A DNA stretch of 64,000 nt from Psococerastis gibbosa (lineage: Eukaryota; Arthropoda; Insecta; Psocodea; Psocidae), in assembly GCA_963971405.1 (NCBI GenBank), contig OZ020490.1:28607464-28671463 (forward strand), read 5' to 3'. The notes under the pieces are model-generated. The model saw only the letters and a program-made list of their open reading frames with translations, made no database searches and was not told where the DNA came from. Shown here one piece after another: positions 14,616 to 60,400 of the stretch; positions within the stretch are counted from its first letter, which is position 1; each line of letters opens with the position of its first letter. The translations under genes and the position numbers were made by a program.

Positions 14616-15411
14616 GGCGCCAATTCCATTGACCGGCTAGGGCTATTTCCAAAAACAGAGACGTGGTAGCAGACATTCAAGACATAGGTTAGGTTTCCAC
14701 CGATCTCGCATTGCAGAATGCAAATGACATTGCCGGAAATTAGAATTTTTCTTTTTATAGAAATCTATAAATATTTGTACTTAACATATCCCATGACGCC
14801 ATATTTTAATTTTAGTTTGTGATTTTACTGTATGATCATTGATCAATTTTAACTATGGCATAGAGGAAAATAAACATTTCCATCAATTCTGCAATGCGAG
14901 GTCGGTGGAGTGGCCACCTAAGTCATGAATGTCTGCTACCCCGTCACCGTTGTTGGAAATAGCCCTAGCCGGTCAATGGAATGGGCACCTTTGATTATTT
15001 TGATTTGAATTTGTAACATTGATAAAGGTGCCCATTCCATTGACCGGCTAGGGCTATTTCCAACAACGGTGACGTGGTAGCAGACATTCAAGACTTAGGT
15101 GGAGTTTCCATCAACCTCGCATTGCAGAATTGACGGAAATGTTTATTTTCCTCTATGCCATAGTTAAAATTGATCAATGATCATACAGTAAAATCAGAAA
15201 AAAACAAACTAAAATTAAAAAATGGCTTCATGGGATATGTTAATTACAAACATTTTAATAGATTTCTATAAATAAAAAAAAAAAACATTTCCGTCAATGT
15301 CATTTGCAATCTGCAATGCGAGGTCGGTGGAAACGCTACCTAAGTCTTGAATGTCTGCTACCACGTCATCGTTGTTGGAAATAGCCCTAGCCGGTCAATG
15401 GAATGGGCGCC
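14616..15411. mobile_element. Two head-to-head MITEs forming a 0.8-kb palindrome
   Basis: Unit 1 (14616-14989) and unit 2 (15027-15411) each begin and end with the same inverted terminal sequence (ATTCCATTGACCGGCTAGGG). Inside each unit is a second inverted pair beginning TTTCCACCGAT/CTCGCATTGC. The interior of unit 2 is the reverse complement of unit 1, so the whole block is a near-perfect palindrome around a 37-bp spacer. There is no coding sequence. Confidence 0.8.
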
Positions 15412-15785
15412 ATACATGGATTGCTACCACGGCACCTAGCCCACGCTGAACAAATGTCTTCACTTTTGGTCACGTGACAAAAGGGGTATTATGGCAAGAT
15501 GTGGTTGACTCCATTGCGTTCAATGCGATTTAGACGTATTTCATTGCCTGTTATTTAATCTATTTACCCATTTATTTAGTTTTTCTTTGGTTTGACATAA
15601 TGTTCATATCTTGCTCTGCTTATAAATGCACTAACAGGTTCAAGATATGTCGAGAAACGGGGGAAAATATTACTTTTCACAAGTAAGTGTTCGCATGGTT
15701 TGGTCATTAGTTGATGCAACATTTATGGGTTTATTTCAGTTTTATTAATCATTATGTTAACAAATCGCACACTTTCAATTGTCCT

Positions 15786-21482: not shown

Positions 21483-24400
21483 ACATCTGGGATGATGATG
21501 ACGACGATGGTATCCATTTGGACGTTGACCATAATTATTGTGGCAAAATGAAGTCCGAGACTGTTGTAGGATGCAATAGTATGGGGGCTGGAGGGGCGCT
21601 TCCTGGATGTGACAATGGTAAGAAACAAATGTTGAGGGTTCACGGACCGTTATGACATGACAGCCAGTAGCAGAGTAGTAGTTGAGACCTAGACTTTCAT
21701 AGTGATATCCATCAGTGTGTTCGTCCTATCGAGCGTTTGCGAATCTATTTCTCCCCAACGAACCTTGTGGCTCATCGACAACTTGCCACATCGGGTTCAA
21801 TCTATTATTTCCAGTCAGGGCGGTGTTACAAAATATTAAATGTTGAAATTAATACTGTCCAACTTCATTGCCCTCGCAGTGTTCTCTTCAACCACCATTT
21901 AAAAAATGATATTGGCACATAGTTTAGTATTTATTTCTGTAATTCTATAAAGGAATGATGCCTCCTCTATGTTGTTGTTTCCTTTTCTACATAAATCAGA
22001 ACATTGAAAAAAATGTCAAAAAATTAACACTGTTAATAAGCAAGGTGGTCCAACTTCAATGTCCCGGGGTTGTACGTGCTCTTCGCTTATTTATAACATT
22101 TACTTTTTATTTTCAGACAAAGCCCGTGTTAAAGATGAAATGTGCAGTCGTCAAGATTTAACTGGCCTTCTGCTGGAAAACGGTGCGTCGTTATATAGGC
22201 TAGGCCTATGGTGTTTTAGGAGGGAAATAAAATAATGATTTAAAATAAAAAATTTTCTTGTTAATAATAATAAAATAAATTAAAAATTCATTTAAGAAGA
22301 AATAAATTTATTTCAATAATTTTTTTTTTTTTTTTGGTCTTTGACACACATGGCGAATACTTAATCAATAATTAATCAACCGACCTTCGGCCTAACTCAA
22401 CAGCCCCGTAAAACCGGCATTTTCGTAAAACGGATTACAAGTAAAACTAAAATTGTTATTTTATTTTATTACTAATTGCTGGTGTAACCCTACAAAATCA
22501 CCATATCCGACGAACTAAAAATTGACAAATGGAATGGTTGAAGGCCGTAAAAGTAGAACATGTACCAAGTAATCAACAAGTAGCTGATATCTTTACAAAA
22601 GCCCTGTCTCTTTTACCAAAAACAAAAAATAACCAATACTTAGAGTTTTAGAAAAACTAGTTATAACAACCTGAATTAGTAAAACCCAAATAATCGTTAA
22701 GAAATTAACTTTGTCTAAGAAACCCACTTGTGTTATTATAAAACCCTGAGCGCTTTCGGCAAGAACTGACATCTACATCTACCTTATCTGCGATTTGAGA
22801 CTTGGTCAACTCGAGGAGAAGATGCAAATGTGACTAGGGAGAGGAAACCTTGGTTTATATAGGACTGTGAGGGGGTGGGAGGGGGCGTGGTTGGTTACCT
22901 ATTCCTAACCTACTAGCTAGATCTATTAGTTGCCCAGCAGTCACTCTATCACAATAATACCACAAACAATCTTATTTCTGAGACCCTCCTTCTATTAGAC
23001 ACATGCACTTATCAAAACTATTTCCGATTCGAATCTGGCTTCTACCAACAAAAAATAGGCCTACCTATGGGTTCTTCCCTTTCTCCCCTTCTTGCGGAAA
23101 TTTTGACGGTTAACTTCGAACTTCGAATAAAAATCCCCTAGTTAAATGTATATCTTTCTGGACACGGTATGTAGATGATATCTTCTGCATTGGGACAGGA
23201 AGTAACAGACAACTAGACAATTTCTTAAGTTTTATCAACACCATTCACCCAAAAATAATAGTACCCTAATAGTACTTCAAGATATTTCGTAAAGAAACCC
23301 ATAGCGATAATATAATCCCTGTTGATTCTTCTCACCCATTCCAGCACAAACACGCAGCCTTCCATAGTATGATTTTTCGACTTCTTAACATCCCTATGAA
23401 TGAAACCAACTATAATAATGAATTAAATACAATAAAACAAATTGCCCAAAATAACAATTTCAGTCTCAATCTAGTAGACAGAACCGAAATTAGAGGATAT
23501 GGAAAAAACTGGGCTTGGCGGGATTCGAACCCACGATCTACGCCTAACCGGGGCGTCGTCCAGCAGTTAAGACGACGCCCCGGTTAGGCGTAGATCGTGA
23601 GTTCGAATCCCGCCAAGCCCAGTTTCTCCATATCCTCTAATTTCGGTTATAACGAGGAGGTTACCTCTTCAACCGAAGTTAATTTAATGTCAGTGTTATA
23701 TATACCATATAATACTACAATGTAATAAATAGTAGACAGAATCCTACGACATCACAAAATCAAACACAACCTCAAACTAATTTACCCCACAAAGAGCAGA
23801 AACCCGGAAACCAATAAATCATATTTCAGGATACAATACTTAGAAAAAAATCACAGAAAAAATAGGTAACCTCATTTCTTCTACAACACTACAGCCCCGT
23901 ACAACCGCAATAATTTAGCCAATAAACTCATGAACTGCAAAACCAAACCAGAAAAGGAAAAGGGCAATGATTGTAATTGTGATTGTAATGTAATTTACAT
24001 AGACCAAACAGGCAGAAGCTTTAAAACTAGGGTCCAATAACATATAACGGGTATACCAACACCAACAGCACATTCACGAAACACGACTCAGAAAATCACA
24101 CATTCGATCCTCACAATTGGACAGCCCTACGCAAAATAAAGAAAAGTTACGACATAACATTCACACAATCATCCCCTCTAATAGATCTAGCTAGTAGGTT
24201 AGGAATAGGTAACCAGCCACGCCCCCTCCCATCCCCCCACCCGCTCCCAGTCCTATATAAACCAAGGTTTCCTCACCCTAGTCACATTTGCATCTTCTCC
24301 TCGAGTTGAGCAAGTCTCAAATCGCAGATAAGGTGTAACTGTGGTAGTGGGTTTCCCTCTTTTGATGGCAGTTCTTGTCGAAAGCGCTCAGGGTTTTATA

Positions 24401-27400
24401 CTAACACAAGTGGGTTTCTTAGCCAAAGTTAATTTCTTAACGATTATTTGGGTTTTACTAATTCGGGTTGTTATAACAAGTTTTTCTAAGACTCTCGTTT
24501 TTGTTATTTTTTGTTTATTAAAATGAAATACCACGAAGTCACGAGTAAACTAATTATTTATGTTAAAACAGCTAGTCTTGCTGAACAACTCAAAATCTAT
24601 AGGAAACTTAAAGAAAAATTCGCCATTGCTTCACTTAACCTCAAATTTAACCAAGATTGCAAAAGACTTAGAATCACTCCTAAATACATCCAAATTAAAA
24701 CAGCAGCCTTTTCCACACAAGGCTACAATATAACACAAGTGGGTTTCTTAGACGAAGTTAATTTCTTAACGATTATTTGGGTTTTACTAATTCGGGTTGT
24801 TATAACAAGTTTTTCTAAAACTTTTAAAAAGTTTTTGTTATTTTTTGTTTGTTAAAATGAAATACCACGAAGTCACGAGTAATTTAATTATTTCTGTTTT
24901 ACCCATTGAAAAATTTATACAAAAGCTTGTTGATTGATTCTTTCTACTTTATTGCATTTTTCTTTAATTAAAGGATTTTTTCTTTCTTTAATATACTATT
25001 GGATTTTAATTAGGTGGCAATTCCACCGGCGATTTTACTTCATTTGTGATTTTTTGTTTTGTTTTAAGGAGACTATTATGTAGATACTTAACTTATCTAT
25101 TATAAATTAAGTTATAATATGGTAGCAGACATCATTAATTAGTCTCTTCCATAGTATAACTTAATTTATAATATATAAGTTAAGTATCTTCATAATAGTC
25201 TCCTGAAAACAAAACAAACAAAAAATCTCAAATCACAAATGAAGTAAAATCGCTGGTGAAAAATTAGGGGGAGGATGCTAAAATAACAATTTTCGCTTAT
25301 TCCGAATAATTAAATAAATAAAAGTTTAGTTTAAGAAGAAATATATTAATAATATTTTTGTGTTTTTTGTTGTCTCTGACATAATACAATAACTTGTTAC
25401 TTTTCTACCTGCCATTCACAACATGGCGATTACATTGATTAATTTTCCAACATTTACTTTTATATCTGTATGGTATTAGACGATCTTCGGCCTAACTCAA
25501 CAAAATCAGCGACTTTCCAAGGAAATTTAATATTTCTTGAGCTACAGCACAACCTCTGAAATATATAAATTTCCCTAAGTTATCTTTTGATGGGCTCTAT
25601 TACTGCCGATGAAAGTTAAAGAAAGTTTCCCTTTGAATGAGGACTTTCGGTTTTATCAGCTGTATATTAGTAAATATTTACTATTTGCTATTATACAGCC
25701 CTAAAAAACCAAGTCCCAATTCAGTGGGAACCTTTCATTAAATTACGTCGACAGAATGTGGCTGAAAAAAACTTGTGGTTATTTGATTAATGGGGTTAGA
25801 CTTGATTTTTTTTTAATGTTGGCTTTTCTTCTTAACTTCACAGCATTTATTGCCACGAAATCTTCCGAAATACACAATTGTTACGCGGAAATGCAAACTC
25901 TTTCGATTTTGTGTATTAGTCTAAACTCTAAAGAATAGCAAGATATTTATCTTGAAGTAAAACATTTTTAGAATGTTTGACATCTTTACAATAAACTCAC
26001 TTCATCTTCGAACATGAAAATGTCTTACCTGAATAACATCTCATATTAGAAAATAATCTTCACATGTTTCCCTGTCCAGTAATACCAGACAAATGGGAGT
26101 ATATTGGCAATTTTTTTCATATAATTGATTCTTACGCTCAAATCTTTACACTTCAAAATGTACTTTTCATGTAATAATGTAATATAATTGTAGTATATTA
26201 TATTTATTTGCAGAGCTATTGGAAAATTATGATGAAACTGATTATGGAATGAACGGCTTTGACGTGAAACAGGAGCATATAGATTGGGAAACATTGAAAT
26301 GCCACGTATGTAACGAGATTTTTTCCACGCATAGCGACCACCATGCCCATATGCTCACACACACAGAACGAATTCAATTAGAGCCGACCGACCAAAGTAA
26401 CAGGCAAGCAGGTATAGATCTGAAGCCAGTCAAGACCGTGAAACCGTTGCAATGTGATACATGTGGAACGGCGTTTGCTAGCAGAACTACACTAGAGACT
26501 CATATGTTACTACACGTTGTGGCAACGTCATTCTGCTGCCACATATGTAATGTTCAATTCATGAAAATGAGCTCACTTGAAAAACATAATGTAAAACATA
26601 CTGGGAATAGAGCATATGGTTGTAACATATGCCATGTCACGTATAACAATCGTAATGACCTGCAGATACATGCGTTGATGCACAGGGGTAAGAATTTTCA
26701 GTGTTGCTTATGCAACAAGAAATTTAATGTTATCAGTCAACTTAAGAGACATGCGTTGGCACATAAAGCGGCAAAAGTGTTTAAATCATTTGTTTGCGAG
26801 ATATGCCATAAGACTTTTGCCAAACGTGCTGATCTAAAGGTTCATGTGTTGGTTCATAGAGATAAAATGGCACCCAACTGTCGTAAAAGGTTAAAATATA
26901 CAAGGGAAAAATCTAATGTTTGTATCATATGCCGAAAGGTATGTGACAACCGTAATGATCTCAAAGTGCATGTTTTGTGTCATAAGGGTAAAAATGGGTT
27001 TACTTGTCGTATATGTAACGAGAAATTTGATATTTTCAGTCATTTTAGGAGACATGTGTTAAGCCATACTCGTAGAAAGCCGTTTAAATCATTATTTTGT
27101 AGCATATGTCAAAAGATATTTGACAATCGTAAGGATCTCAAAGTTCACACGATTTCGCATGGTGATGATCAATCGCTGAGTGATAGAAATTTGAGTGACA
27201 TACTGGATAGCGAACATAAGGTGATAGAGGAACCAAAGATGCAGACTAGCATGAGGGATATCACTCATACGCCAGCATATAATCTGGAAGAAACGCCGAA
27301 AATTGGAGTACAGGATAACTACGTTACGGTAACGCACAATGTGGAAGAACTTCATCACAGTTGCGTATGGGATAGTATGCAAACAGTGGTACCTACTGTG

Positions 27401-31818: not shown

Positions 31819-31832
31819 ATGAATGTGTAGCT

Positions 31833-32212
31833 TGTCGAAGGACGATGCAATTGAATAGGCAGTGTAGACTTGAATTGGTTTGTATTGCAGTGCTTCGACT
31901 CAAGTTAGAGTAATTTAACACACAGTGGTTACAATATGAGCTGTGAGACAAGAACGATACATGCTTACAATTAATATTGAATTTGATCCAGCCTGCTTCC
32001 ATATAGAAAAACCAACTCTGTGTCCACAGCTAAAGGAGCTGATGAGACACAGAGGGTAGATTAAAGATATTATTGAATAAGAGAAATAAATACGTAAAAG
32101 GAAGATTGAGGAATATTGAATTATCTGAATGTGAACAGCGCCATCTACCGGGAAAAAGGTGAAGCTGGAAGCAGACTGGTTATTACACATGTGGGACTAA
32201 GTGGTCCCCACA
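31833..32212 (-). repeat. 3' LTR of the gypsy element
   Basis: 380 bp, TGTCGAAGG...CCCCACA in plus orientation. It is nearly identical to 37969-38348. The adjacent minus-strand polypurine tract (AGGAGGGGGG) marks it as the 3' LTR. Confidence 0.9.
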
Positions 32213-32223
32213 TTACCCCCCTC

Positions 32224-35200
32224 CTAAGACTGGAAGTCGGAGAAATGTCGTGGAACGTGGACGTGACGACCTGAGCGAGTGGTGCGAGTCGGTGGTGTCG
32301 GCACGACGTCAGTGGCAGGAAGTGGTGAGGAGACCTTCTCCTGAGGTTTATCATGAGCAGTATGCTGATGCGGGGGGTTGATCGTAGACTGGTGAGACGG
32401 TTCGTCTGTACTGGCATTAATGTAGGCCGGCTTGACCCTGTCCATTGACACAGTAACCGCACGACCGCGGCTTGAAATCGTAACTGTTTTGTCGGTGCGA
32501 CTTAACACAGGGAATGGTCCCGCATAAGGACGTTCGAGGGAAGCACGGACGTGGTCTTGTCTCACGAAAACGTGCGTGGCCTTGGCAAGGTCTTGTGGGA
32601 TGAATGTTTGATGAGCCCCGTGTCTCTTGACGCGAGTGGGGCGTAGTGAGTCGAATTTCCTTCGAAGTGAGATGAGAGTGTCCACCGGACTCTGATTTGA
32701 AGGAGGAGTTGTCAGCATCTGTCCTGGTAGTTTTAATGGTTCACCATAGACCAGATCTGCTGGAGAAGCTTGAAGATCTTTCTTAAGAGTGGCGCGCATG
32801 CCCAGTAAAACTAGCGGAAGGGCTTCCGTCCATTTGTCATTGGCATGACACATAATGGAGGCTTTGAGTGAGCGGTGCATACGCTCTACCATGCCGTTGG
32901 ATGCAGGGTGGTAACTGGTAGTCCGTGCATGGTGAAATCCGCATAATCGGGCCAGGTCAGCAAACAAATGGCTCTCAAACTGTCGGCCGCGATCTGTAGT
33001 AATTGTCTCCGGGCACCCAAACCGGCTGATCCAGCAGGAAATGAGGGTTCTGGCGACGTTTTCGGCGGTGATGTTCACCATAGGAGCGGCTTCCGGCCAT
33101 CGCGTGAAACGGTCAACGAGTGTTAACAAATACGTGTAGCCTTCCGACGGTGGTAATGGGCCTACAATGTCGAGGTGTATGTGCTGAAACCGTCGGTCAG
33201 GCTGAGTAAAGGTTCCAATCGCAGTGAGGGTGTGTCGATGTATCTTGGACAATTGACAGTTGACACACAGACGAGCCCAAGCGCGGCAATCCTTACGGAT
33301 AGAAGGCCATATGTAGCGTTGGGCAACCAGGTTAGCAGACGCTGCTATTCCTGGGTGATGTAGGCTGTGTAGGTGCTCGAAAAGTTGTCGACGTAATGGT
33401 TTGGGCACAAATGGGCGTTGTATGTCTTGACTAGAATCGCACGTAAGGACTGAATCAGAGCCCGGAATGGGAACATCAACGAGGATGAGGGACGTCTTTC
33501 TACTGGACCGAAGCTCTTTGAGTTCTCTGTCGTCTTTCTGAGCAGAAGAAAGTTGCTCAGGAGATACGGGAGTAGAGATTGCTTCGATTCTTGAGAATGC
33601 ATCAGCGGCCAAGTTGTCCTGCCCAGCGATGTATTGGATGTCCGTGGTGAATTGAGAGACGAATTCCATTTGCCGCATTTGGCGAGGTGAGCAACTTGTT
33701 TTTGGATTCTGAAAAGCGTGCGTCAACGGTTTGTGATCGGTATACACGACAAAAGCGCGCGCTTCTAGCAGGTAACGGAAATGACGAATGGCGTCGTGTA
33801 CCGCAAGCAATTCGCGATCGTAGGCGGACCATGTTCGTTGGTTTTCTTTAAGTTTCTGCGAGAAGAATGCCAATGGCTGCCAATGATCGTTGATCCGTTG
33901 TTGGACTGTAGCTCCGATACTGGTGTCTGATGCATCTGTGACTAGTGCAATCGGAGCCGTATGATCTGGATGCGCGAGTAGGGTGATGCGTGCCAGACTG
34001 TGTTTGCATGAGCTGAAAGCTTCGGTAAGCTTTGTTGTCCATGGTATCGTAGCGTTCCCTTTTACCTTGTCTCCAGATAACAACGTGTTGAGTGGTGCTT
34101 GTTCGTTGGCTGCATTTGGTAGGAACCGGCGGTAGTAGTTAATCATGCCAAGGAAACGGCGTAGATCTTTGAATGTCTTTGGAAGAGGGTATTCAGTGAG
34201 TGCCTTTACCCTGTCTGGTAGGGCTTGTGTGCCTTCTGCTGACACGAGGTAACCAAGAAAGCTGATTGACCCAACGCCGAGGGTACACTTGCTAGGATTA
34301 ATGACTAGGCCATATTCTCGGAATCGTTGGAAGAGTTGACGTAGGTGTGATTCGTGCTCCTGCTTATCACTCGATGCAACCAGTACGTCGTCGATGTATG
34401 AATATGCCCACGGGAGGTCGCGTAGGATGTTATCCATGAAGCGTTGGAAGGTTTGAGCAGCATTGCGAAGACCGAATGTCATGAATGGGAATTCGAAAAG
34501 GCCGAACGGAGTATTTATTGCTGTCTTTGGAATGTCACCATTGGAAACTGGTATCTGGGTGAATGCTTTGACCAGGTCTATTTTGCTGAATACGGTTTTT
34601 CCTCGCAATTCTGCACTGAAATCTGCGATGTGGCGGACTGGGTACGCGTCAGGAATTGTTCGAGCATTGAGCCGTCTGTAGTCCCCGCATGGGCGCCATG
34701 AATGGTCGCTTTTAGGTACTAGGTGTAATGGTGAGGCCCATGGGCTGTCGGACGGACGACATACGCCGGTCTGGATCATGTCGTTGAACTCCTTTTTGGC
34801 GATAATAAACTTGTCCGGGGCCAACCGGCGTGGGCGAGCGGAGACGGGAGGTCCGTCTGTCGTTCTAATGTAGTGGACCGTGGAGTGTTTGACCTGGTCT
34901 GTGGGTTGTCTCGGCCGCGTGAGGTCGCTAAACTCCTCAATTATTACTTTTAGACTGGCCGGGGTACTGTGCGGTATTGTTAAGGTAGAAACGCTAGGTT
35001 GCTTGGAGGGGCTTTGACACAGGTTCGCCTTGCGATGCGTTGTCCCGTCGATCAGCTTTGAGTTCTGGAGATCCACCAGCAAATTAGAGGCTGCGAGAAA
35101 GTCTGCACCGATGATGGGTTGCGTGACATCGGCAATGATGAAATTCCAACGGAAACTGCGTCGTAATCCCAGGTCCAGTTGTTGAGCTGTTGTTCCGTAC

Positions 35201-35487
35201 GTATTGATGATTGTGCCATTGGCGGCAGTCAGCTCGAGTTGAGTACGACGGAGCGGTAGGTTGAGACGGGCACGTGGAAAAACGCAGATGTCGGACCCTG
35301 TGTCAATGAGATAACGTATCTTGGTGCAAGGGTCCGTGATAAGAAGGCGATGTGAGGTTTTAAGCAGGTGTGTAGTGGCGCAGGCAGGCCCTGCCTTTAC
35401 TGGCTGCGATCGTCGTTTTTCGGAAATCTGCATGGCTGCTGGCACTTTCTGGCCTTCCTCCCATAGGTTTGGTGGTAAAAACACCAA
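32224..35487 (-). CDS. pol: Gypsy Pol polyprotein: protease, RT, RNase H, integrase (1087 aa)
   Basis: This is one uninterrupted minus-strand frame. Domains in order: aspartic protease with [13 protein letters not shown] (about residue 60); reverse transcriptase with [10 protein letters not shown] and the catalytic YIDDVLVAS (about 365); RNase H with LVTDASDTS and [12 protein letters not shown] (about 515-600); and integrase with its HHCC finger (HLHSLHHPG...CVNCQ), then the DDE residues in [15 protein letters not shown] and [14 protein letters not shown] (about 700-880). The C-terminal tail is threonine- and proline-rich. Gag overlaps it by 91 nt in a different frame, offset by -1, so expression probably needs ribosomal frameshifting. 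The coding sequence looks intact although gag is interrupted. Confidence 0.92.
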
Positions 35488-37759
35488 GTTGGGTCTTGTT
35501 TAGGCGCTGGTGAACGGAACTGGCGCTGGAACCGTGGCTGTGTGGCACGTTGTCCGTATCTGTCGGCGAACTGTGCCTGTAGAGCCGCGACGTTCTCTGT
35601 TAACGTCTTCAATAGGTCCACAGGGGCCATTGTGCACTCAAGAATCCGGTCACGTGTTGCTGAATTGATGGTGGCCATCTTGTCGGCGAGGTTCGCGACG
35701 TCACCTAGTGACAGGTGATCATGACCGATGATTGCCAATTGTATAGCGTGCGGGAGGCGAGACGTCCAAATGGTGCGTAAAACCGAGTCTGATATGGCTT
35801 TCTCTGCGAGGGCCCGCAGTCTCCGGAGAAAAGAGCTGGGAGTTTTGTCCCCTATGTCTTCCGACATTAGTAGCTGAATGCGACTGCTTGCTGGAAGACT
35901 CATTCGTTGGATTAACTGCGTTTTTAGCTCAGTGTATGGGTTTACTGGTACTGGGGCAGCTAACAAATCTGAGATCTCGCTGAGGGTACTTTGGTCGAGC
36001 GCTGAAAGGACGTGGTAATATTTCGTCGTTTCCATTGTGACCCCAGCAAGTGCGAACTGAGCCTCCGCTTGAGTGAACCACAGTGCCGGTGACAGGTTGG
36101 CCGACTGTGTCCAGAAGGGTGGAAGCTTGACCGAGACCAGCGTTTCCACTTTGAGGGAAATTTCCCTTTTTAGGGAAAATCCGGGTTTATTCACTGCCTT
36201 AAAGGGAAATTGGAGGGAAAACTGGTGGAAAAGTCAATGATTAATATAAACTAGCTGAAAATGGAAAATGTCACAATATATAATAAAAACACATAAAATT
36301 TGATAAATATGAATAAATAACGGTTTCAAATTTTAGTGCGAATGTTATGAATTCTCACGACTGATGGCTTGGTGGGAATTTTAAAAACAGGAGTACATCA
36401 GTGGTTGATGATGATTTGACTAGCCTAGTTGTAGCAGCACAACTACACGATAACACGAGGTAATGGCACTGGCACGTGTTTTGGGTCCACCCCCCGAAAT
36501 ATTTGCAGCGTACACTAGATAGAATGGAGTTTTAAATATACAGTAGAATCCGGTGATAATGACATCGAAGGGAATTGACAAACATGGATGTCATACAAGG
36601 CGAATAGTATACAATATATCTAGGTATATATAATGAAAACCAAACTTTCTTCGTAATTCGTCATAATAGGCGGTTGGTCAATATAGACGGAGTCTTAATA
36701 AACGGATTCTACTGCATTGAGGTGACACCAATTTTAGCAAAACTCGTTGAAAGATGAGCGAGGAAAAATCATTGGCGTAAATAGGAGGATAAAGGCGTAG
36801 TATCCACAATAATGAAGGGGAAGTTAATTCTTGGCGTGCTTATTTCATCTGAAAGACATAACAAAACTACAAATAAACGTGTTGACCAAGTACTTTCACA
36901 AAAGGATATTACTCAAAAAGCTTAAAACCCCAATACTTCAGACCTATTTTTTCTCCGGGGGAGACCCCCGGTCCCCCCTCAGTGGTAGGTTTATTCGTCG
37001 GTAAAATCTCAACTATACTGCTTGCAAAATGCGTAAAACCTCACGAATTTGGGCCTATTTATAATTTTTTTTCCTCTGGGGGAGACCCCCGCGCCCCTCT
37101 TTCTCCAAGGTATAACATGCGCAAAAACCTCACTGATTTGGGACCATTTATCAATTTTTTCTCCGGGGGAGACCCCCGGGCCCCCCTGCCTCCAGGGTAT
37201 ATCATGTGTATTGGTCACTTATACCCTACTTGACAGGCAAAATTCTCACCTATCCTCCGAGAAAAATACCAAAATCCGCGCCTGGTACCACCATTCAAAA
37301 CAGGTTCAGCAATTTGGCCGTCAGGCATATACAGTATATAGTAGAATGAGACGACTAGGTCGCTGGGCGTTCCGGAAACAAAAGTTTACTTTTTTATTTT
37401 TTTGTTTTACTGAACTTGAATAGTTTAATGTGTATAACGTATTTCATACTCATTAAAAAACAATAAAACTTAAATAATAAAAAAGTCATATAATTTGCTA
37501 GGCAGACTTCCCCCCCCCCCCCCTCAGAAATTTTGGAAATTTAGAAAATAGAGGAAAATTCCGAATATTAGCGAATTGGGCGAGTGAGGGAAAAGAGGGA
37601 AATTTTGAGTTGCCGCTGAGGGAAATGTGATATATCGCAAGTGGAAACGCTGACCGAGACTACCATCGTACTAGCAGGGCCTGTCATCTTGGTTGTAGCT
37701 GTAGCGGTTGTAGCTGTAGCGGTCGTAGCTGTAGCGGTTGTGGCTGTGGTCTGCGGCAT
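35397..37759 (-). pseudogene. gag: Gypsy gag split by a hAT insertion
   Basis: Gag starts at 37759 with a threonine/alanine repeat (TTATATTATATT), encoded by a 15-18 bp minisatellite at about 37690-37755. It is cut at 37653 and resumes at 36129. Counting bases shows that removing the hAT and one copy of its 8-bp duplication would leave the frame unbroken, at about 279 codons. The body has a capsid-like helical region (FWTQSANLSPALWFTQAEAQ) and ends with the CHCC motif. Gag was therefore probably intact when the hAT landed. Confidence 0.85.
36138..37652. mobile_element. Non-autonomous hAT, copy B, complete
   Basis: The ends CAGCGTTTCCACTT (36138) and AAGTGGAAACGCTG (37652) are exact inverted repeats. 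The 8-bp duplication ACCGAGAC lies at 36130-36137 and 37653-37660. Length is 1515 bp with no transposase, three GC-palindrome units (about 36955, 37077, 37161) and a poly-C run at 37510. It is the full-length version of 30630-31818. Confidence 0.9.
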
Positions 37760-37968
37760 CTTGCAGGTTGTGGCTGTGCTGCTGCGGTGAATGTAGCTGC
37801 TCCGGGGTGGTTTCCACCGCCTATGGCCGGATGAGACGTTCTGGAGGCTGGAACTGGAACGGGCTGGAAGCTGGAACTGGCTGGAAGCTAGGACTGGAAC
37901 TGGAACTGGAACTGGAGCTGGAATCTGGAAGGCTGCTTGTTCCGTTGTCGAGGGTCACCAATGTTGCT

Positions 37969-38348
37969 AGTCGAAGGACGATGCAATTGAATAGGCAGTG
38001 TAGACTTGAATTGGTTTGTATTGCAGTGCTTTGACTCAAGTTAGAGTAATTTAACACACAGTGGTTACAATATGAGCTGTGAGACGAGAACGATACATGC
38101 TTACAATTAATATTGAATTTGATCCAGCCTGCTTCCATATAGAAAAACCAACTCTGTGTCCACAGCTAAAGGAGCTAATGAGACACAGAGGGTAGATTAA
38201 AGATATTATTGAATAAGAGAAATAAATACGTAAAAGGAAGATTGAGGAATATTGAATTATCTGAATGTGAACAGCGCCATCTACCGGGAAAAAGGTGAAG
38301 CTGGAAGCAGACTGGTTATTACACATGTGGGACTAAGTGGTCCCCACA
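37969..38348 (-). repeat. 5' LTR of the gypsy element
   Basis: 380-bp partner of 31833-32212. Its outermost inner base is A instead of T, and about three further differences are visible. Confidence 0.9.
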
Positions 38349-43042: not shown

Positions 43043-43450
43043 TAATAATAAAAGTCTTGTTTAGGAATACGATAACTAACTAATAGTAAAAATGTTTGCC
43101 CCAGAACTGTAGTAGAATGCATAGTAGCCGAGTTTGGGGAAATGATGCGACGGAACTACTCAGCCTGCATCTGGGCAGATCCAAACAGTCAGCATTTCTG
43201 GTCTTATGCAGATGAACAGCATTTCTCTTAATGAATAGTTTTGATGTACAGTAAGCAGAAACGTTATGTTGATTGTTGAAACTATTTTGTAGCAAAGTCA
43301 AAGTCAAACCGAATAACATATGTTGATTAATGTAGGCCAGGCCTAGACGTCGAATTGGAAGCTATCGCAAAAAAATATTTCAATACTGTCTTTTATCGCT
43401 AAAAATTATTTAATATCATGATAACCGAAATTAGAGGATACGGAAAAAGC

Positions 43451-43523
43451 TGGGCTTGGCGGGATTCGAACCCACGATCTACGCCTAACCGGGGCGTCGT
43501 CTTAACCTCTGGACCACAAGCCC
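43451..43523 (-). tRNA. Opposed tRNA-like copy in the same foldback element
   Basis: Reverse-strand counterpart of 43972-44044 with the same cloverleaf and very few differences (for example an A for the C of the D loop). Together the two would form a long hairpin if transcribed through. Confidence 0.5.
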
Positions 43524-43971
43524 CGACAAGTCCAGTAAATGCCAAATCCTCTACTTATGCTCTAATTGACATGATTCGTGTTGCTAGACAGGTTAGCACA
43601 ACTATCTAACCGAACAGGTCTGCGAGCTGACTTAATTGCATAAAGGCAATGCTTTATTCATTACATTCTAGTATTATATGGTATATAAAACACTGACATT
43701 AAATTAACTTTGATTGAAGAGGTAACCTCCTCGTTATAACCGAAATTACAGGATATCGAAAAAAGTTAATTTAATGTCATCAGTGTTATAGATTTAGCCT
43801 ATATACCATATAATACTACAATGTAATGAATAAAGCATTGCCTTTATGCAATTAAGTCAGCTCACAGACCTGTTCGGTTAGATAGTTGTGTAGTTGTGCT
43901 AACCTGTCTAGCAACACGAATCATGTCAATTAGAGCATAAGTAGAGGATTTGGCATTTACTGGACTTGTCG

Positions 43972-44044
43972 GGGCTTGTGGTCCAGCGGTTAAGACGACG
44001 CCCCGGTTAGGCGTAGATCGTGGGTTCGAATCCCGTCAAGCCCA
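43972..44044 (+). tRNA. tRNA-like sequence inside the foldback element (probably a SINE head, not a functional gene)
   Basis: 73 nt fold as a cloverleaf: 7-bp acceptor (GGGCTTG/CAAGCCC), D arm with box A-like TGGTCCAGCGG, anticodon stem ACGCC/GGCGT, T arm with box B GGTTCGAATCC, discriminator A. The seven-base loop CCGGTTA would put GGT at the anticodon, but position 33 is C instead of the invariant T. That and its place in a mobile element argue for a tRNA-derived promoter. Confidence 0.55.
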
Positions 44045-44437
44045 GTTGTTTCCATATCCTCTAATTTCGGTTATAACGAGGAGGTTACCTCTTCAACCAA
44101 AGTTAATTTAATGTCAGTGTTATATATACCATATAATACTACAATGTAATAATATCATGATGTCAAGTAAAATAGACAAAGTTAAATTCTCGGTTTTATT
44201 ATATTTATTTTTGAAATGCTTAAAGGTTATTATTCTGTATCAGGCTTATGATGGCTCTCAACCAATCATCGCAAAGGTTGATAAGTATCCAACCAATCCA
44301 AATATTGTAATTTGACGTCATTTCTCATACCAAAAGTCAAAACACGAGTCGGTCAGCGTAACACCTGTGTTTGCACCATTCGTTTGCACTACGCATGCTC
44401 ATGGACTCCAACCACAGAACATCGTATAATTATATAT

Positions 44438-49069: not shown

Positions 49070-49325
49070 TGTTGAAATAATTTTTTAAATTATAATTTTT
49101 GCTATTTCATAATAAAATAATAATAAAATTAAAAATAATAATAATGAAAATAAATATTAATTTAATAATATTTTTGTTTGTCTATGACATTGTCTGTGAC
49201 ACTGTTTAGAGTTTACAATGTTTTTTTACTTCCTTGCTAAAAAGATGGCGAATACACAATATTAATTCAAAGTGTGATATTTTTTTATCTATAAATTTAA
49301 AACCGATCCAAGGCATAACCCAACA
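49070..49325 (+). repeat. 5' LTR of copia
   Basis: 256 bp, TGTTGAAATAA...CCCAACA, AT-rich. Same sequence as 53445-53700 on inspection. Confidence 0.95.
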
Positions 49326-49339
49326 GGTTATGGGCCCAG
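49326..49339 (+). promoter_or_regulatory. Copia primer binding site
   Basis: GGTTATGGGCCCAG immediately after the LTR. It resembles the known copia site that pairs with a half-molecule of initiator methionine tRNA. Confidence 0.8.
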
Positions 49340-49454
49340 ATAAATCGGGAAACCAAGATGTTCCGTAAAATCAATTAAAAAGAAAAATTAAAAATAATAA
49401 TTAAAATTGTCGCGTGTGCAAAGTGCTTGTGTAACCTAATCTTACCAGTACACC

Positions 49455-52400
49455 ATGCACGAAGACGTAAAAATTGAAAAATTAAATGGTCCAAACTACC
49501 TCACGTGGAAATTTCAAATAGATGTCATCTTAAAATCGATATATGCGTACGACATTGCAACCGGAACGGAACCTTTACCAAGTATCCTTACCAAGGATAA
49601 AAAAGATGATACATCGTGGATAAAAACTGACATAAAAGCTCAACGACTAATTGTAACCTCAGTGGATAGCAGCCAAATTGTGCATTTACTAACATGTACA
49701 ACATCAGCCGAAATGTATAAAGCATTAAATGATCTCTACAATAAGGACACTCATCAACAAAAATGTTCTCTTCTAACGGATTTTTACAACTTTAAATTGG
49801 AAGATGTCAACAAGGGAATTGCTGAAATAAAAATAATTATCCATAGACTAGCTTCATTGGGAGAAAAGTTAACAGACGAGATGGTTGTAACAAAGATTGT
49901 ATCTTCTCTTCCCGAAAAATTCAACGCCTTCAGAAGTGCTTGGGAGTCAGTCACTGCAAAAGATAAGACGCTTGCCAATCTTTTTTCTCGCCTTCAATTA
50001 GAGGACGAACGATGTGGAAACAACTCAGTAGCATTCAAAACACTAGCCCAAGGTAAAAGTACTCTATCTAATTCTAATTTTAAAAATAAAAATGAACTTT
50101 TCTGTACGTATTGCAAATTAAGAAATCATAGGATTGAAAAATGTTTTAAAAAAGCTAGAGATGAAAGAAATACGCTTTATTGCGGAATTTGTAAAAAGAG
50201 GAATTCGCACCGATCCTCAGAGTGTTTTTTCCGTAACAGAAATAGAGAAAATGGTGACAGCAATAATAATAAAGTTTTTTTGGTATCTAAAAATTCCAAT
50301 TACTTTAATAATAATAAAAGTATTAGCTTAGCTGTCGATAGGGCAGCAAGTAAACATTTAGTTAATAATTTAAATTGTCTTGAGAATAGTAATCCTGCAA
50401 TATCAAAATTCAGTTTAGCAAAAAAGAATGAATCCTTATTTGGAACGGCCATAGGAACATTAAAGAGTGAGAGTGTGACATTAAACAATGTAGTTTACGT
50501 ACCGGAGTTATCTCAAAATCTTCTTTCTGTTAAAAAAATCACCGATAAAGGTGGGTTTGTATTATTTTCAAAAGGAAACGTAGAAATTATTAATTCAAAA
50601 TTCGAAACTGTCATGGAAGGTAAAGAAAATAACGGTTTGTTCGTTGTTAATTTAAAATATGGTAAAAACCAAAATTTAAAAAATAGAGAAAATATTTTTT
50701 CTGTGAATGATTATGACGACATTTATGAATGGCATAGAAAATTAGGTCATATTAGTTTTAAAAATTTGCAAAGACTTGCAACAATGTCAGATGGAATAAA
50801 AATAACTAAAAATTCTTTAGATATTAAAAATTGTGAAATTTGTATTAAAGCTCGACATGCTCGTGATCCCTTTAGTGGAAATTTAAAGCGTGCTACTCGA
50901 ATGCTCGAAATAATTCATAGTGACGTCGAAGGTCCCTTTGAAATTGAATCTATTGATCAATGCAAATATTATGTATCAATAATTGATGATTTTACGTGTT
51001 ATAGTGAAGTACATCCTATAAAAGCAAAATCAGACGCAGCAAATGTTATAAAAAATTTTATTTTGCGAGCCGAAAATGAAAAAGGTTTAAAAGTATGCAG
51101 ATTTAAATGTGACGGTGGAGGTGAATACCTGCCATTAAAACAATGGTTTTATAATAGAGGAATATTTTTTGATGTAACTGCTAGTTATAGTCCTCAAATG
51201 AACCCTCGTTCAGAAAGATTAAATCGGACAATTACTGAAAAAATAAGAAGTTTACTCTTTGATAGTAATGTTAATAAAAATTTATGGAGTGAAGCGGCTA
51301 AGACAAGTTGTTTTTTACTTAATCGCAGTCCAACAGTTAATAGCAAGGCAACGCCTATAGAAAATTGGACTGGAAAAAGACCAGATTTAAAAAATTTAAA
51401 AATTTTTGGTTCTGAAGCTTATGCTAAAATTCTACCTCGTGTTAAGAAGCTTGATGAAAGATCAAGAAAATTGATATTCGTTGGTTATAATCATAATGGT
51501 TATCGTTTGTTTGACCCAAACATTAAAAAGATTGTTATTTCTAGGGATGTTATTTTTCCTGAAAATTCACTTAAAATTAAAAATAAGCTAAAACCTGAAG
51601 AAATGGTAAAACTTGATTTTAATGTTTCAGAATTTTTCAAGGATTCAGAGTCTGAATCAGACAAGCACCAAGTGAGCCCACGTAGAGTCAATGAATCTGT
51701 GGAGGAAATAATCAGTGAAAATGATGCTGACGGTGAGTCTGAATCAGAACCTGAAACTCCAAAGGAATACCCTTATAAATTAAGAAGTAGAATTAATCTA
51801 CGGAAACCTGCTACACTTGATGATTGTGAAACTAATTTAACTGATCTATTTGATGATAGCGTATATTTAACGTTTGAAGAAGCCGTAAAAGGCAATGAAT
51901 GTAAAGAATGGGTAGATGCTGTAGAGAAGGAGAAAGAATCGTTGATTTCTAATAAAACTTGGATTTATATTCCAAAAGCAGAAGCTGAAAATAATAAGAT
52001 TTTGACTTCTCGCTGGATTTTTCGCAAAAAAGATAATAATACTTTTAAAGCCAGACTCGTTGTAAGAGGTTTCGAACAAGAAAATGGCATAGATTTTACC
52101 GATATATTTAGTCCAGTGGTAGATTCAAATAGTTTACGATTGTTATTTGCTTTAGCAGCAAAGAAAAAAATGCTAATTGCTTCATTTGATATAAAATCTG
52201 CATTTTTAAATAGCGATCTTAATGAGAAAATTTTTATGCATATTCCGGAAGGATTTAAAAACGCTAAAAACAAAGACAAAGTATGTCTATTAAAAAAGTC
52301 ATTGTACGGACTTAAACAATCTCCAGCATTGTGGAATTCTAAGTTGAATGATTATTTATTATCGATTGGTTTACAGAGATTAAAATCAGATCCTTGTATT

Positions 52401-53351
52401 TATTGTAATACTGATAAAAGCTTGATAATTTCAATTCATGTTGATGATGGATTAATAATAAGTAAAAATGAATTGATGTTGAATGATTTTGTAAAAAAGC
52501 TAAGCAAACTTTGCGAAGTTACCTATAACAAAGACATAAAGAAATATGTAGGTATTGAAATTTTGAGAACTAAAGCTGGTATAAAAATTAGCCAGGAGAA
52601 ATATGTTGAAAACATGCTTAAAACTTATAATATGTCGGAAGCAAATTCTGTTAAAACTCCAATATGTAATCAAAAGTCAGATAACAGTAAAAATATATCC
52701 TTTCCATACCGCGAAGCAGTCGGTAGTCTCTTATATTGTTCTACTAAAACACGACCAGATATAACTTTCAGTGTGAATTATGAAAGTCGTTGTATTGAAC
52801 CTAAAACTGATAATGTTTCCGATGTAAAAAGAACTTTAAGATATTTAAAAGGTACAAAGAATTTAGGAATAACTTATAATGGTTCAAATTGTAATAAACT
52901 AATTGCATATTCAGATGCAAGTTACGCAGATGATGAAATATCTCGGAAAAGTACCACAGGTTTCGTGATTTACTATTGTGGCGGACCTGTAGCTTGGTGT
53001 TCAAAGAAACAAAATATTGTAACACTTTCCACTACTGAAGCTGAATATATAGCAGCTGCAGAATGTCTAAAAATGTGTTTGTTTTTGAAATCTTTAATCC
53101 AGGAATTAACTGGTGAAAAATTGGAAATCTTACTATTTGTTGATAATACTAGTACAATTGAAGTAATGAAAACTGGTTGTGGAAAACGAACAAAGCACAT
53201 AGATGTAAGATATAAATTTATTACTGATCTAGTAAAGAACAAGGTAGTAGAAGTAAAACATGTTCCAAGTAGTGAACAAGCAGCAGATATTTTTACAAAA
53301 GCTCTACCTAATTCTTCATTTGAAAAGTTTAGAAAAATGCTTGTTGTTTAA
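49455..53351 (+). CDS. Copia Gag-Pol polyprotein (1298 aa) with altered protease motif
   Basis: Order: Gag (UBN2-like, residues about 1-200), two CCHC-type knuckles (CTYCKLRNHRIEKC and CGICKKRNSHRSSEC, about 215-255), protease, integrase, RT, RNase H. Integrase has its HHCC finger (HRKLGH...CEIC, about 430-465) and DDE residues in HSDVEGP, CDGGGEY and RSERLNR. RT has SFDIKSAFLN and HVDDG (about 910-1000). RNase H has AYSDASYADD, STTEAEY, VDNTSTIEV and AADIFTKAL (about 1155-1280). The frame has no stop. Oddity: where copia proteases have D-S/T-G, this copy reads D-R-A (VDRAASKHL, about 50334-50360), which should inactivate protease. The usual DNGGE of integrase is DGGGE. The start is the first ATG after the leader. 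Confidence 0.92.
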   Translation: MHEDVKIEKLNGPNYLTWKFQIDVILKSIYAYDIATGTEPLPSILTKDKKDDTSWIKTDIKAQRLIVTSVDSSQIVHLLTCTTSAEMYKALNDLYNKDTHQQKCSLLTDFYNFKLEDVNKGIAEIKIIIHRLASLGEKLTDEMVVTKIVSSLPEKFNAFRSAWESVTAKDKTLANLFSRLQLEDERCGNNSVAFKTLAQGKSTLSNSNFKNKNELFCTYCKLRNHRIEKCFKKARDERNTLYCGICKKRNSHRSSECFFRNRNRENGDSNNNKVFLVSKNSNYFNNNKSISLAVDRAASKHLVNNLNCLENSNPAISKFSLAKKNESLFGTAIGTLKSESVTLNNVVYVPELSQNLLSVKKITDKGGFVLFSKGNVEIINSKFETVMEGKENNGLFVVNLKYGKNQNLKNRENIFSVNDYDDIYEWHRKLGHISFKNLQRLATMSDGIKITKNSLDIKNCEICIKARHARDPFSGNLKRATRMLEIIHSDVEGPFEIESIDQCKYYVSIIDDFTCYSEVHPIKAKSDAANVIKNFILRAENEKGLKVCRFKCDGGGEYLPLKQWFYNRGIFFDVTASYSPQMNPRSERLNRTITEKIRSLLFDSNVNKNLWSEAAKTSCFLLNRSPTVNSKATPIENWTGKRPDLKNLKIFGSEAYAKILPRVKKLDERSRKLIFVGYNHNGYRLFDPNIKKIVISRDVIFPENSLKIKNKLKPEEMVKLDFNVSEFFKDSESESDKHQVSPRRVNESVEEIISENDADGESESEPETPKEYPYKLRSRINLRKPATLDDCETNLTDLFDDSVYLTFEEAVKGNECKEWVDAVEKEKESLISNKTWIYIPKAEAENNKILTSRWIFRKKDNNTFKARLVVRGFEQENGIDFTDIFSPVVDSNSLRLLFALAAKKKMLIASFDIKSAFLNSDLNEKIFMHIPEGFKNAKNKDKVCLLKKSLYGLKQSPALWNSKLNDYLLSIGLQRLKSDPCIYCNTDKSLIISIHVDDGLIISKNELMLNDFVKKLSKLCEVTYNKDIKKYVGIEILRTKAGIKISQEKYVENMLKTYNMSEANSVKTPICNQKSDNSKNISFPYREAVGSLLYCSTKTRPDITFSVNYESRCIEPKTDNVSDVKRTLRYLKGTKNLGITYNGSNCNKLIAYSDASYADDEISRKSTTGFVIYYCGGPVAWCSKKQNIVTLSTTEAEYIAAAECLKMCLFLKSLIQELTGEKLEILLFVDNTSTIEVMKTGCGKRTKHIDVRYKFITDLVKNKVVEVKHVPSSEQAADIFTKALPNSSFEKFRKMLVV

Positions 53352-53444
53352 ACTTTTTATTGTATTTCTATATAATGAAGGAATTTTATTTTATTTTACT
53401 AAAAGTTTGGAATTTAATTATTCATGCAAAAATTAAGGGGAGGA

Positions 53445-53700
53445 TGTTGAAATAATTTTTTAAATTATAATTTTTGCTATTTCATAATAAAATAATAATA
53501 AAATTAAAAATAATAATAATGAAAATAAATATTAATTTAATAATATTTTTGTTTGTCTATGACATTGTCTGTGACACTGTTTAGAGTTTACAATGTTTTT
53601 TTACTTCCTTGCTAAAAAGATGGCGAATACACAATATTAATTCAAAGTGTGATATTTTTTTATCTATAAATTTAAAACCGATCCAAGGCATAACCCAACA
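53445..53700 (+). repeat. 3' LTR of copia
   Basis: 256 bp, identical by eye to the 5' LTR. Follows the polypurine tract. Confidence 0.95.
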
Positions 53701-57498: not shown

Positions 57499-60400
57499 AT
57501 GGTAGACATGTGGGACACTGGGCAGGTCCTGCAGGAACATAATTATGCTGACGTGGAGGTTGCAGGAGTGAGCAGCTGTGTGGAGGTCGTGTATGACGCC
57601 CCGGGTAAGTCTTATTTAGGAAAGCCATTCCCACCTACTCTTTGTAGACTTTTCTGCGAGCAAACTATCACACGGTAAATTTAGCAACTTCAATAAAATT
57701 AACAAATTTACTTTAAAGTTTCTCCCAGTTTTTCCGCGGGTAAACAGAAAACTCTGCCTTCTGGTACACAGCGTTTCCAGATTTGTCTTTTTATTGGTTC
57801 AAGGAATAGAAATTGAATCTTAAATTATATTTCGTATATAAATTAAATTTAAATTTTTAAAATGTTATTTTCAATTCTCCTTGTTTTTTGCAGACTTGGA
57901 GGCTAACTGTGAACGAGGCGATGAAGAAGCGACAGTCAGCAACCGGGAAGAGGAACAGGTGATTACGGCAACCGAAAAAAAATTTGTATGCAATAAATGC
58001 GGCGAGACGTTCACCAGAACAAAAGATTTCATCGTTCATAGGCGTACACATGGCGAGAACATCAGTGCGGAATGCGACATTTGTGGGCAGACATGTACCA
58101 GCAATGACTTAAATACACACATGCAATCACACGCGGGAGGGAAACCGTTCTATTGCCGCCTATGTAGCAAACAGTTCATAAAAATGGGTACCCTTGACAG
58201 ACATAATGAAAAACACGTGTGGGTCAAATCGTTTGGTTGTAACATGTGTAAAAAGTCTTTGGGCAGCCGTAATGATCTCAAGGTTCATATGTTGACGCAT
58301 AGAAACAACAGATCATTTCGTTGTCATATATGTTACGAGGAATTCTACATCAACGAACAGTTTTTGAAACACATGTTAGGACATAAGAGGAAGAAGAAAT
58401 TGGCTTGTAACATATGCAAGAGGGCTTTTGCTAATAGTATGGACCTCAAGCTTCATGCGATAACCCATATGGAGGTAGAATCAGTGGAAGTACCATTTAG
58501 GTGTAACATATGCCAAAATACGTTTTCCAGCGAATGCCGCCTGGAGAAACATGTACTAACACATACATGGGCAAATCCAGTTTATTGTCTCATATGTAAT
58601 AAGACATTTTCTTTGTATGATACCCTAAAAACGCATATGTTACATGTGCACAAAAAGCACATAGCGGGTGGACCGTTTGTTTGTAATACTTGTAAAGAGG
58701 CGTTCTTAGACATTAAGAAACTTAAAAAACATGCGTCCACACATGAGGGAGAGCAGACGTTTGATTGTAATATTTGTGCAATGACCTTCCCCGAGTTTCA
58801 ATTGTACGAAAGGCATATGCATACACACACTGTTCCGTTTGGATGTAATTTATGCCAGGAAGCGTTTTCCGACTTTACTGGACTCAAGGAACATATTATA
58901 TCAACCCATAAAAGGACGGACCTGTTTCAGAGTGGTGAACAGAGTGCCGCGCCTGTAAAGAAAGCACCATTTCGATGTAACATATGCCAGGAGGCCTATT
59001 CAAGTGTCAGTAACCTCGAGAAACATATACTAACACATTCATCGGCAAATCCAGTCTATTGCCGCTTGTGTAATAAGACATTTTCTTTGTATGATACCTT
59101 TAAGAAGAAAGTGTTACACACAGTGCATAAAAAACACATGGAGGGAGGGCCGTTTGCTTGCAATACGTGTAAAGAGGCGTTCTTGAACATTAATACCCTT
59201 AAAAAGCATGCATTAACGCATGTAGGAGGGCAATTGTTTGATTGTAGGATATGTGTAAAAACATTCTCAAAATTTGAGTTGTATGAGGCGCATATGCTAG
59301 CTCACACAGTTCCGTTTGGATGTAATCTATGTCACGAAAAGTTCGCTAAAGGCTCAAATCTCAAGGAACATGTGTCAACACATGAGAAAACTGAGCTATT
59401 TCAGAGTGAGGCTTCAACGCTTACAAAGAAGCTACCGTTTAAATGTAAGATCTGCCAGGAAACATTTTCGGACGTGAGTAATTTAGAGAAACATATCCTA
59501 ACTCATACATGGACAGATCCAGTTATTTGTCGTGTTTGTAAGAAGACATTTTCTACGTATGATGCCCTGAAGGGACATATGTTACACGTGCACAAAACAG
59601 AGATAGATGGAGGACCGTTTGGGTGTAATTTATGTCAAAAAGTCTTCTCTAACTGCACCGATCTCAAAGAACACATTTCAATGCATACAAAGGGACAGAA
59701 TACAACAAGTGAAAAAACTGTATCTGCCGACATTAAGTTGGTGGATAATACAATCAAACCCCTGTACAGGTGTAGTATATGTAACGAACCTTTTTCCTAT
59801 TGGAATAGCGTTCGGGTGCATTTGTTGACTCATACTGAACGAGATCCATTCGGATGTCATATATGTGAACAACTATTCTCGAACATTATTGCGTTGAAGA
59901 AACACATGTTGGAACATGCACAAGTACAGTCTTTTGGCTGCAATTTATGCAATTCAACATTCACAGTATGGAAAACCTTCAAAGCGCATATGTGCCAATG
60001 TCATACATGTGACAAGACGTTCTCCAAATGGGTTGGCGTTAAAATGCACATGTTAACGCATATTGATGTGAACGTTTTAACATGTAATGCATGCGAGGAA
60101 ACATTCTTGGAGTGGGAAAAATTTGCGGCACATATGCGAGTACACGCTTCGAGAGATGCGTACCAATGTAAAACATGTAAAGTAACATTTAGAAATAGTA
60201 TTGATCTCGAAGTGCATAAGTTGAAGTTGTCCCACGACGGGCCATTTCCAAGTCGTATAAGTAATGAGCCGCGTTCTTCAGGTAGCAACGAAAACTCGCA
60301 TGCGCTTCCGTATACGGAGGAAAAGAAAGCTATTAACAAAGGACAAATGTTGTCACACATAGACAAGCCGTTCGGGTGTGGCAAATGTGAAAAATCATTC

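Follow-up and report, generated by a model that had tools for sequence, protein, structure and literature searches.

Two opposed-arm insertions with tRNA-like heads

The window analyzed here is a stretch of 64,000 nucleotides from the insect Psococerastis gibbosa (GenBank assembly GCA_963971405.1, contig OZ020490.1, positions 28,607,464 to 28,671,463 of the forward strand). It contains two insertions of a repeat with a tRNA-like head, which we call the tRNA family. Copy A occupies positions 23484-23729 and is flanked by perfect 12-bp target duplications of TAGTAGACAGAA (23472-23483 and 23730-23741). Copy B occupies positions 43423-44149 and lies between perfect 12-bp duplications of TAATATCATGAT (43411-43422 and 44150-44161). 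Each copy consists of two arms in opposite orientation, and the two insertions have their outer ends in common and differ at the inner junction. A preliminary description of this DNA had placed them at 23483-23729 and 43423-44149, which is right to within a base, and had correctly recognized that they share the same ends, are built from opposed tRNA-like sequences and have arms of different lengths. It gave the duplications as 11 and 12 bp; both are present, and both are 12 bp long.

Compared with the 323-bp unit of the family, copy A matches at 23482-23560 on the minus strand (100%) and at 23549-23731 on the plus strand (95%), and copy B matches at 43421-43764 on the minus strand (95%) and at 43762-44154 on the plus strand (95%). 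These matches reach into the duplications by a few bases, and those of the two arms overlap where the arms join. In unit numbering (u), the first arm of copy A (23484-23560, minus strand) has its outer end near u101 and its inner end at u23. The second arm (23551-23729, plus strand) overlaps the first at the junction and comprises a truncated tRNA-like head, the body and an outer end near u179. The first arm of copy B (43423-43764, minus strand) starts at about u101-103, runs for one full 323-nt lap plus about 28 nt and has its inner end at -248. Its second arm (43763-44149, plus strand) is also longer than one lap, with an inner end at -195 and an outer end near u179.

ARAGORN finds two complete tRNA-like heads in copy B, at 43451-43523 on the minus strand (Thr, anticodon GGT) and at 43972-44044 on the plus strand, and these score 57.4 and 55.8 bits with the Rfam tRNA model. 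Both heads of copy A are truncated. The one on the plus strand scores 30.7 bits against an Rfam threshold of 29, and the one on the minus strand falls below this threshold at 28 bits. An RNA polymerase III (Pol III) transcript starting at either head had been expected to read into the opposed copy and fold as a long hairpin. The heads diverge, so such a transcript would run outward, away from the opposed copy.

An abundant 323-bp unit

The unit was defined from a tandem copy (L039) in which a short inverted arm is followed by a second arm of about eight identical 323-bp laps, all within one 12-bp duplication. It consists of the tRNA-like head (u1-73), usually a run of six T residues, and then a body. 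Numbering starts at the head, the outer ends of insertions fall near u101 (site 1) and u179 (site 2), and u180-323 leads into the next head. In the 409 Mb of genome searched (68 contigs), the 21-nt core CCTCTAATTTCGGTTATAACG (u84-104) occurs at 2,958 sites with at most one mismatch (1,483 + 1,475) and its reversed control at none, which makes this a high-copy family. Genome-wide pattern counts give 2,749 occurrences of the site 1 end, 947 of them with read-through, and 790 occurrences of the site 2 end, 200 of them with exact read-through of the u179/180 junction. No inference is drawn from the ratio of these two patterns because older sampled copies carry variants at the site 2 end.

Insertions were sampled by position from the first 74 of 100 listed exact core matches on contig C1 (L009-L038 and L059-L098). 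This positional sample comprises 70 loci and, after four repeats are dropped (for example, L030 repeats L029), 66 distinct insertions. Added to these are 20 best-match regions (L039-L058, reduced to 19 because L055 repeats L028) and the two window copies, for a total of 87. The chosen copies are younger and longer than the positional ones. Because the exact u84-104 core was required, pairs that have the u101 end twice are under-sampled, as they keep the core only if an arm runs a full lap. Two insertions (L017 and L059) are two-armed once their arm pieces are joined across inserts, and another (L063) was counted as one-armed despite a visible stub of the other arm. At one sampled locus (L072, C1:13689800-13692900), a two-armed element is itself arrayed at a 483-bp period (sites 13690849, 13691332 and 13691815), apparently by later amplification.

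Outer ends and target duplications

Opposed arms are present in 47 of the 66 sampled insertions, and 36 of these have one outer end at each site, near u101 and near u179. A single insertion (L097) has the same outer end twice, with the u179 end on both sides, so that 36 of the 37 insertions with both ends intact have one end of each kind. The rest are 10 opposed-arm insertions that lack an outer end, 10 one-armed copies with the u179 end, 3 one-armed copies with the u101 end and 6 fragments. The 47 opposed-arm insertions have 94 outer ends, and 82 of them fall within u93-109 or u169-189, two intervals that together make up 11.8% of the unit. We infer that these intervals are the start sites of reverse transcription.

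Target duplications accompany the two-ended insertions. A duplication score of at least 9 is obtained by chance for 2 of 1,000 mismatched flank pairs. In the positional sample it is reached by 27 of the 36 insertions with two different intact outer ends versus 1 of the 13 one-armed copies (Fisher p = 3e-5), and when the 19 chosen and two window copies are included the counts become 44/54 versus 1/16 (p = 6e-8). The most common length is 12 bp (21/44). Since duplications are found in two-ended copies and mostly not in one-armed ones, a duplication is linked to priming on both strands.

These results bear on what the inserted unit is. If the two window copies were chance nestings in a family of ordinary monomers, opposed arms should be rare, and instead they are found in 47/66 insertions, 36 of them with two different intact ends. 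The specific case of two monomers of a short interspersed nuclear element (SINE), one inserted into the other, was also considered and rejected, as the fixed offset ends inside a single duplication argue against it. The preliminary description had favored an inverted dimer as the inserted unit, and this does not hold as a fixed structure. The outer ends are constant and the inner ends vary across copies, and thus the inversion is apparently made anew at each insertion.

Inner ends, laps and a probable shared template

Inner ends were compared in 50 clean two-armed copies, the chosen ones included, with arms more than 60 bp apart left unjoined. The inner ends of paired arms lie within 15 nt of each other in 4 of the 50 copies, and 4.9 are expected from shuffled pairs. 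Many arms run for more than one lap: 17/50 first arms and 13/50 second arms are longer than 323 nt, and the u179/180 point is crossed without a break in 19/50 first arms and 13/50 second arms. An end of the RNA at u179/180 was considered as a candidate and rejected, with only 2 of 100 inner ends (the second arms of L045 and L023) within 10 nt of this point. First-arm inner ends form a cluster (9/50 between -262 and -228) roughly 25 nt beyond a full lap from the start, and this cluster might reflect the enzyme colliding with its own primer on a circle. The inner junctions of all 50 copies contain at most 24 nt of unmatched sequence, a count that inserts beyond the 60-bp joining limit would escape. 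Separate stopping points after two fixed starts fit the inner-end data.

Both arms of an insertion appear to have been copied from the same template. In 38 young insertions, at unit positions present in both opposed arms, the arms share 20 of 157 variants (12.7%) versus 3.1% when arms are permuted, and none of 2,000 permutations gives a value as high. Four variants that are each confined to a single insertion also recur inside it, across the arms in L060 and L071 and from lap to lap in L081 and L092. Most differences between arms are private to one arm, as expected from later mutation.

The tRNA-like head and the search for a ribozyme

In 132 of 165 arm observations the tRNA-like head is followed by the run of six T residues (u74-79), which is interrupted in the plus-strand arms of copies A and B. 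The arms also include sequence from upstream of the head. A T-run at this position would be expected to terminate many Pol III transcripts short of the start sites, and it is consequently unlikely that the head acts as promoter for the entire template. A tRNA maintained by selection was also considered and rejected. Conservation of the head does not exceed that of the rest of the unit, and its loop, CCGGTTA, has a C where the U33 of a tRNA anticodon loop is expected. Our guess is that the tRNA may assist in processing the RNA or in closing it, by way of host tRNA enzymes.

A motif scan found no hammerhead CUGANGA core on either strand of the unit, and no ribozyme family was found in it with Rfam at E ≤ 10. 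The motif scan is the better hammerhead negative of the two, because Rfam at E ≤ 5 missed hammerhead-like cores that the scan finds in L100 and L101. These cores (CTGATGA...GAAAC with a 5-bp stem II) occur downstream of GIY-YIG matches of another Penelope family in the same genome, at about positions 264-304 of L100 (plus strand) and on the reverse strand of L101, at about position 260 of the reverse complement. When the unit is computationally folded as a closed circle with the tRNA included, its predicted structure is more stable than those of shuffled sequences are on average (100 shuffles, z = -3.5).

Resident Penelope elements

Elements of the Penelope type are present in the same genome. 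At least 48 GIY-YIG matches were found among 150 scored of 707 first-look candidates, and some of these may be host genes. One locus (L099) is a Penelope-like element (PLE) with RVT_1 and GIY-YIG domains. It has a head-to-head arrangement (342-1316 against 5813-4849, 98%) and, by eye, a likely 12-bp target duplication of ATTTAAATATGT. Copy A of the tRNA family is itself hosted by a decayed PLE at 22618-24892 on the plus strand, which was delimited with L099 by tblastn and blastn. This window Penelope begins with an inverted first arm (22618-22929) and continues with an arm related to the reverse transcriptase (RT) and GIY-YIG regions and with the 3' part. Inspection by eye suggests that its two ends are offset by about 42 bp and that it has a probable left duplication, TCTCTTTTACC (22607-22617), with an 11-bp right copy, TCTGTTTTACC (24893-24903), that differs by one mismatch. 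With their head-to-head arms, offset ends (about 42 bp in the window element) and duplications of 11-12 bp, both elements resemble the tRNA family in anatomy and in duplication length.

Sequence kinship between the tRNA family and the resident Penelope elements is only suggestive. The best matches of the unit to the 3' region of the resident Penelope are 14 of 14 identical bases at u240-253 and about 18 of 20 identical columns ending at u138. An antisense control of this comparison scores 20 versus 28.

A model for insertion by Penelope-type machinery

We consider it probable that the tRNA family is a non-autonomous retroposon that is copied and inserted by Penelope-type machinery, using RNA of a 323-nt unit that bears the tRNA. 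The template would be RNA of the unit with no detectable internal end, for which a circle is the simplest form. A Penelope enzyme, the presumed actor, would make a staggered cut of about 12 bp in the two target strands. Copying of the RNA would then begin near u101 from one target 3' end and near u179 from the other, and each complementary DNA (cDNA) would be extended for a variable distance, at times over several laps. Host repair would join the two cDNAs by short homology or end joining, and fill-in of the stagger would create the target duplication. The predicted outcome is a pair of head-to-head arms whose outer ends are fixed and differ from each other and whose inner ends vary. The order of these steps, like the actor and the circle, is our proposal for how the observed anatomy, end positions, duplications, unmatched inner ends, laps and shared variants could have come about.

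Several observations weigh against this interpretation. The inner ends of paired arms have a weak rank correlation (Spearman 0.30, p = 0.037; 50 copies) that the model does not explain. The arms of copy B share none of 20 variants and thus give no sign of a common template in this copy, and gene conversion within the palindrome could be responsible for part of the sharing between arms. Only 1 of the 10 opposed-arm insertions with a missing outer end has a duplication, and the same-site insertion (L097) has none. The Anolis Penelope protein is reported to show no start-site difference between the top and bottom strands in vitro (PMC11167929), so the rule of one site per strand is not predicted by it. 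The distance between site 1 and site 2 is about 78 nt in the tRNA family versus about 42 nt in the window Penelope. For the two best matches of the unit to the resident Penelope 3' region, 1 and 3 shuffles out of 300 score as high. Around the unit these matches keep the order that they have in the Penelope element but lie about 209 nt apart instead of 91, and inspection by eye gives a third likeness (CTAATTTCGG-TTATAAC) that does not fit this order. The unit has no match at E ≤ 5 to two further 1-kb Penelope 3' regions (L100 and L101). Finally, the model leaves the role of the tRNA unexplained, and the head has no excess conservation (2.9% at non-CpG positions versus 2.4-3.0% elsewhere).

Alternative explanations

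The strongest alternative retains two-strand, two-site priming but places it on linear multimeric transcripts of tandem copies, and it is compatible with insertion by Penelope-type machinery. Tandem arrays do exist, as in L039 and at the 200 exact u179/180 read-through sites. The authors of the Anolis study infer a multimeric mRNA, and they describe hammerhead mutants that leave insertion unaffected (PMC11167929). However, transcripts of the typical short two-armed copies would carry those copies' own junctions, and in the 50 clean copies, with arms joined up to 60 bp apart, the unmatched sequence at an inner junction never exceeds 24 nt. Two private variants that repeat lap after lap in a single arm (L081 and L092) also weigh against linear multimers. 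We regard such multimers as a genuine possibility, although a minority one.

An ordinary tRNA-derived SINE moved by a long interspersed nuclear element (LINE) is improbable. Its inverted copies would come from twin priming, which is known for L1, and the tRNA-like head, high copy number and target duplications are all SINE-like features. Translations of the window also read as encoding LINE-type reverse transcriptases. However, opposed arms are the rule among the sampled insertions (47/66), the site of the second priming is constant, and multi-lap arms are present. One-armed copies, which should be the normal SINE product, mostly lack a duplication (1/13 has one).

Snap-back self-priming, in which the 3' end of the first-strand cDNA folds back and copies itself, has been proposed for rotifer Penelope elements, and head-to-head inverted repeats are common in Penelope elements (PMC3846280). 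It predicts matched inner ends, and none are found in excess (4/50 within 15 nt, against a shuffled mean of 4.9). It also leaves the second fixed outer end near u101 unaccounted for, and it is therefore not supported and very improbable here. A foldback or miniature inverted-repeat DNA transposon with a captured tRNA would have inverted arms and target duplications, but it is scarcely credible in view of the outer ends that differ by an offset of about 78 bp, the variable inner ends and arm lengths, and the tandem laps within insertions.

Relationship to known elements

Insertion by Penelope-type machinery can be compared with what is reported for Penelope proteins and genomic copies. With purified Anolis Penelope protein, both target strands are cleaved and extended, and copying starts inside the RNA at two adjacent sites whose interval corresponds to the "tail" of genomic copies. 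In this 2024 biochemical report, second-strand synthesis and repair still await validation (PMC11167929). Rotifer Penelope elements are described with inverted pseudo-long terminal repeats (pLTRs), duplications of 8-10 bp that are missing from some copies, a 31-bp tail and a suggested self-priming step (PMC3846280). The tRNA family shares with PLEs, as these sources portray them, a head-to-head inverted arm, tandem pLTR-like units, an offset equivalent to the tail, target duplications and two putative internal RT starts. Three of these likenesses were tested in the sampled copies: opposed arms with both ends occur in 36/66 insertions, with a duplication in 27/36, the offset of the outer ends is seen in the 82/94 that fall in the two intervals, and tandem or partial-tandem units occur both in the roughly eight laps of L039 and as arms longer than 323 nt (17/50 first and 13/50 second arms). 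There are also differences. The unit of the tRNA family, at only 323 nt, is too short for the open reading frame of a PLE, with its telomerase-like RT and usually a GIY-YIG endonuclease, which the resident elements do have, and the family can be at most a non-autonomous PLE derivative or passenger. In addition, it carries a tRNA-like head, its ends are offset by about 78 bp rather than 30-42 bp, and no hammerhead core was found in it.

Metazoan retrozymes offer a second comparison. They are reported as tandem units of a few hundred base pairs that contain a type I hammerhead and are expressed as circles, and Penelope elements are named as strong candidates for moving them (PMC7229834). The tRNA family is similar in having a non-coding unit of a few hundred nucleotides, tandem copies, low G+C content and co-existing Penelope elements, and our proposal parallels the retrozyme report in its circular template and in the Penelope mobilization suggested there (PMC7229834). 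It differs in having a tRNA instead of the hammerhead core and in its opposed arms; the word "inverted" does not occur in the main text of the retrozyme report (PMC7229834). We hold a bolder interpretation tentatively, as something short of an even proposition. The family may be a ribozyme-free "retrozyme," a tRNA-bearing circle inserted by Penelope, in which both cut strands prime at two fixed sites and the cDNAs are joined mid-way. The tRNA would then replace the hammerhead in forming or stabilizing the circle, and the rule of one site per strand would be the missing second-strand step of Penelope insertion.

Resemblance to other small elements is more limited. Like tRNA-derived SINEs, the family has a tRNA-like head, encodes no protein and reaches a high copy number, but its head is embedded in a unit for which neither a 5' nor a 3' end is detectable, is usually followed by six T residues and is found mostly in two-armed insertions. 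Helenus and Ajax, which are described as non-autonomous long terminal repeat (LTR) elements, also place a small-RNA gene on a retroelement that is not a SINE; the anatomy of the tRNA family, however, is not of the LTR type. The preliminary description had called this a new element type. Its two-armed anatomy is that of PLEs and is not new in this respect, whereas no tRNA-bearing version turned up in a literature search that had most subscription journals outside its reach. "Short, nonautonomous Penelope elements" receive a mention in a report on heliconiine butterflies (PMC6685494).

We read the tRNA family as real, abundant and unusual, and as both Penelope-type and retrozyme-like. It may serve as a natural large-scale experiment on how Penelope elements finish insertion, because the unit is only 323 nt and each insertion therefore records where the strands started, how far they ran and how they were joined. 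The records so far point to one site per strand, unmatched stops, a template with no end detected within the unit and duplication mainly when both strands prime. They also bear on the published guess that Penelope moves retrozyme-like circles, and they suggest that the hammerhead may be dispensable for this process.

Other features of the window

Further self-complementary stretches occur at 14615-15412, 25021-25261, 14251-14400, 7589-7719 and 25603-25754 (up to 811 columns, 87%), and these could be additional foldback families. An element at 49070-53700 reads in translation as Copia-like. Its 256-bp terminal repeats are 100% identical and its 1303-residue frame is open from stop to stop, and it looks recently inserted. 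A second element, at 31826-38348, reads in translation as Gypsy-like and lies between 387-bp repeats that are 98.7% identical. A tandem repeat with a 477-bp period occupies 58540-59621, within a zinc-finger-like frame of 1567 residues.
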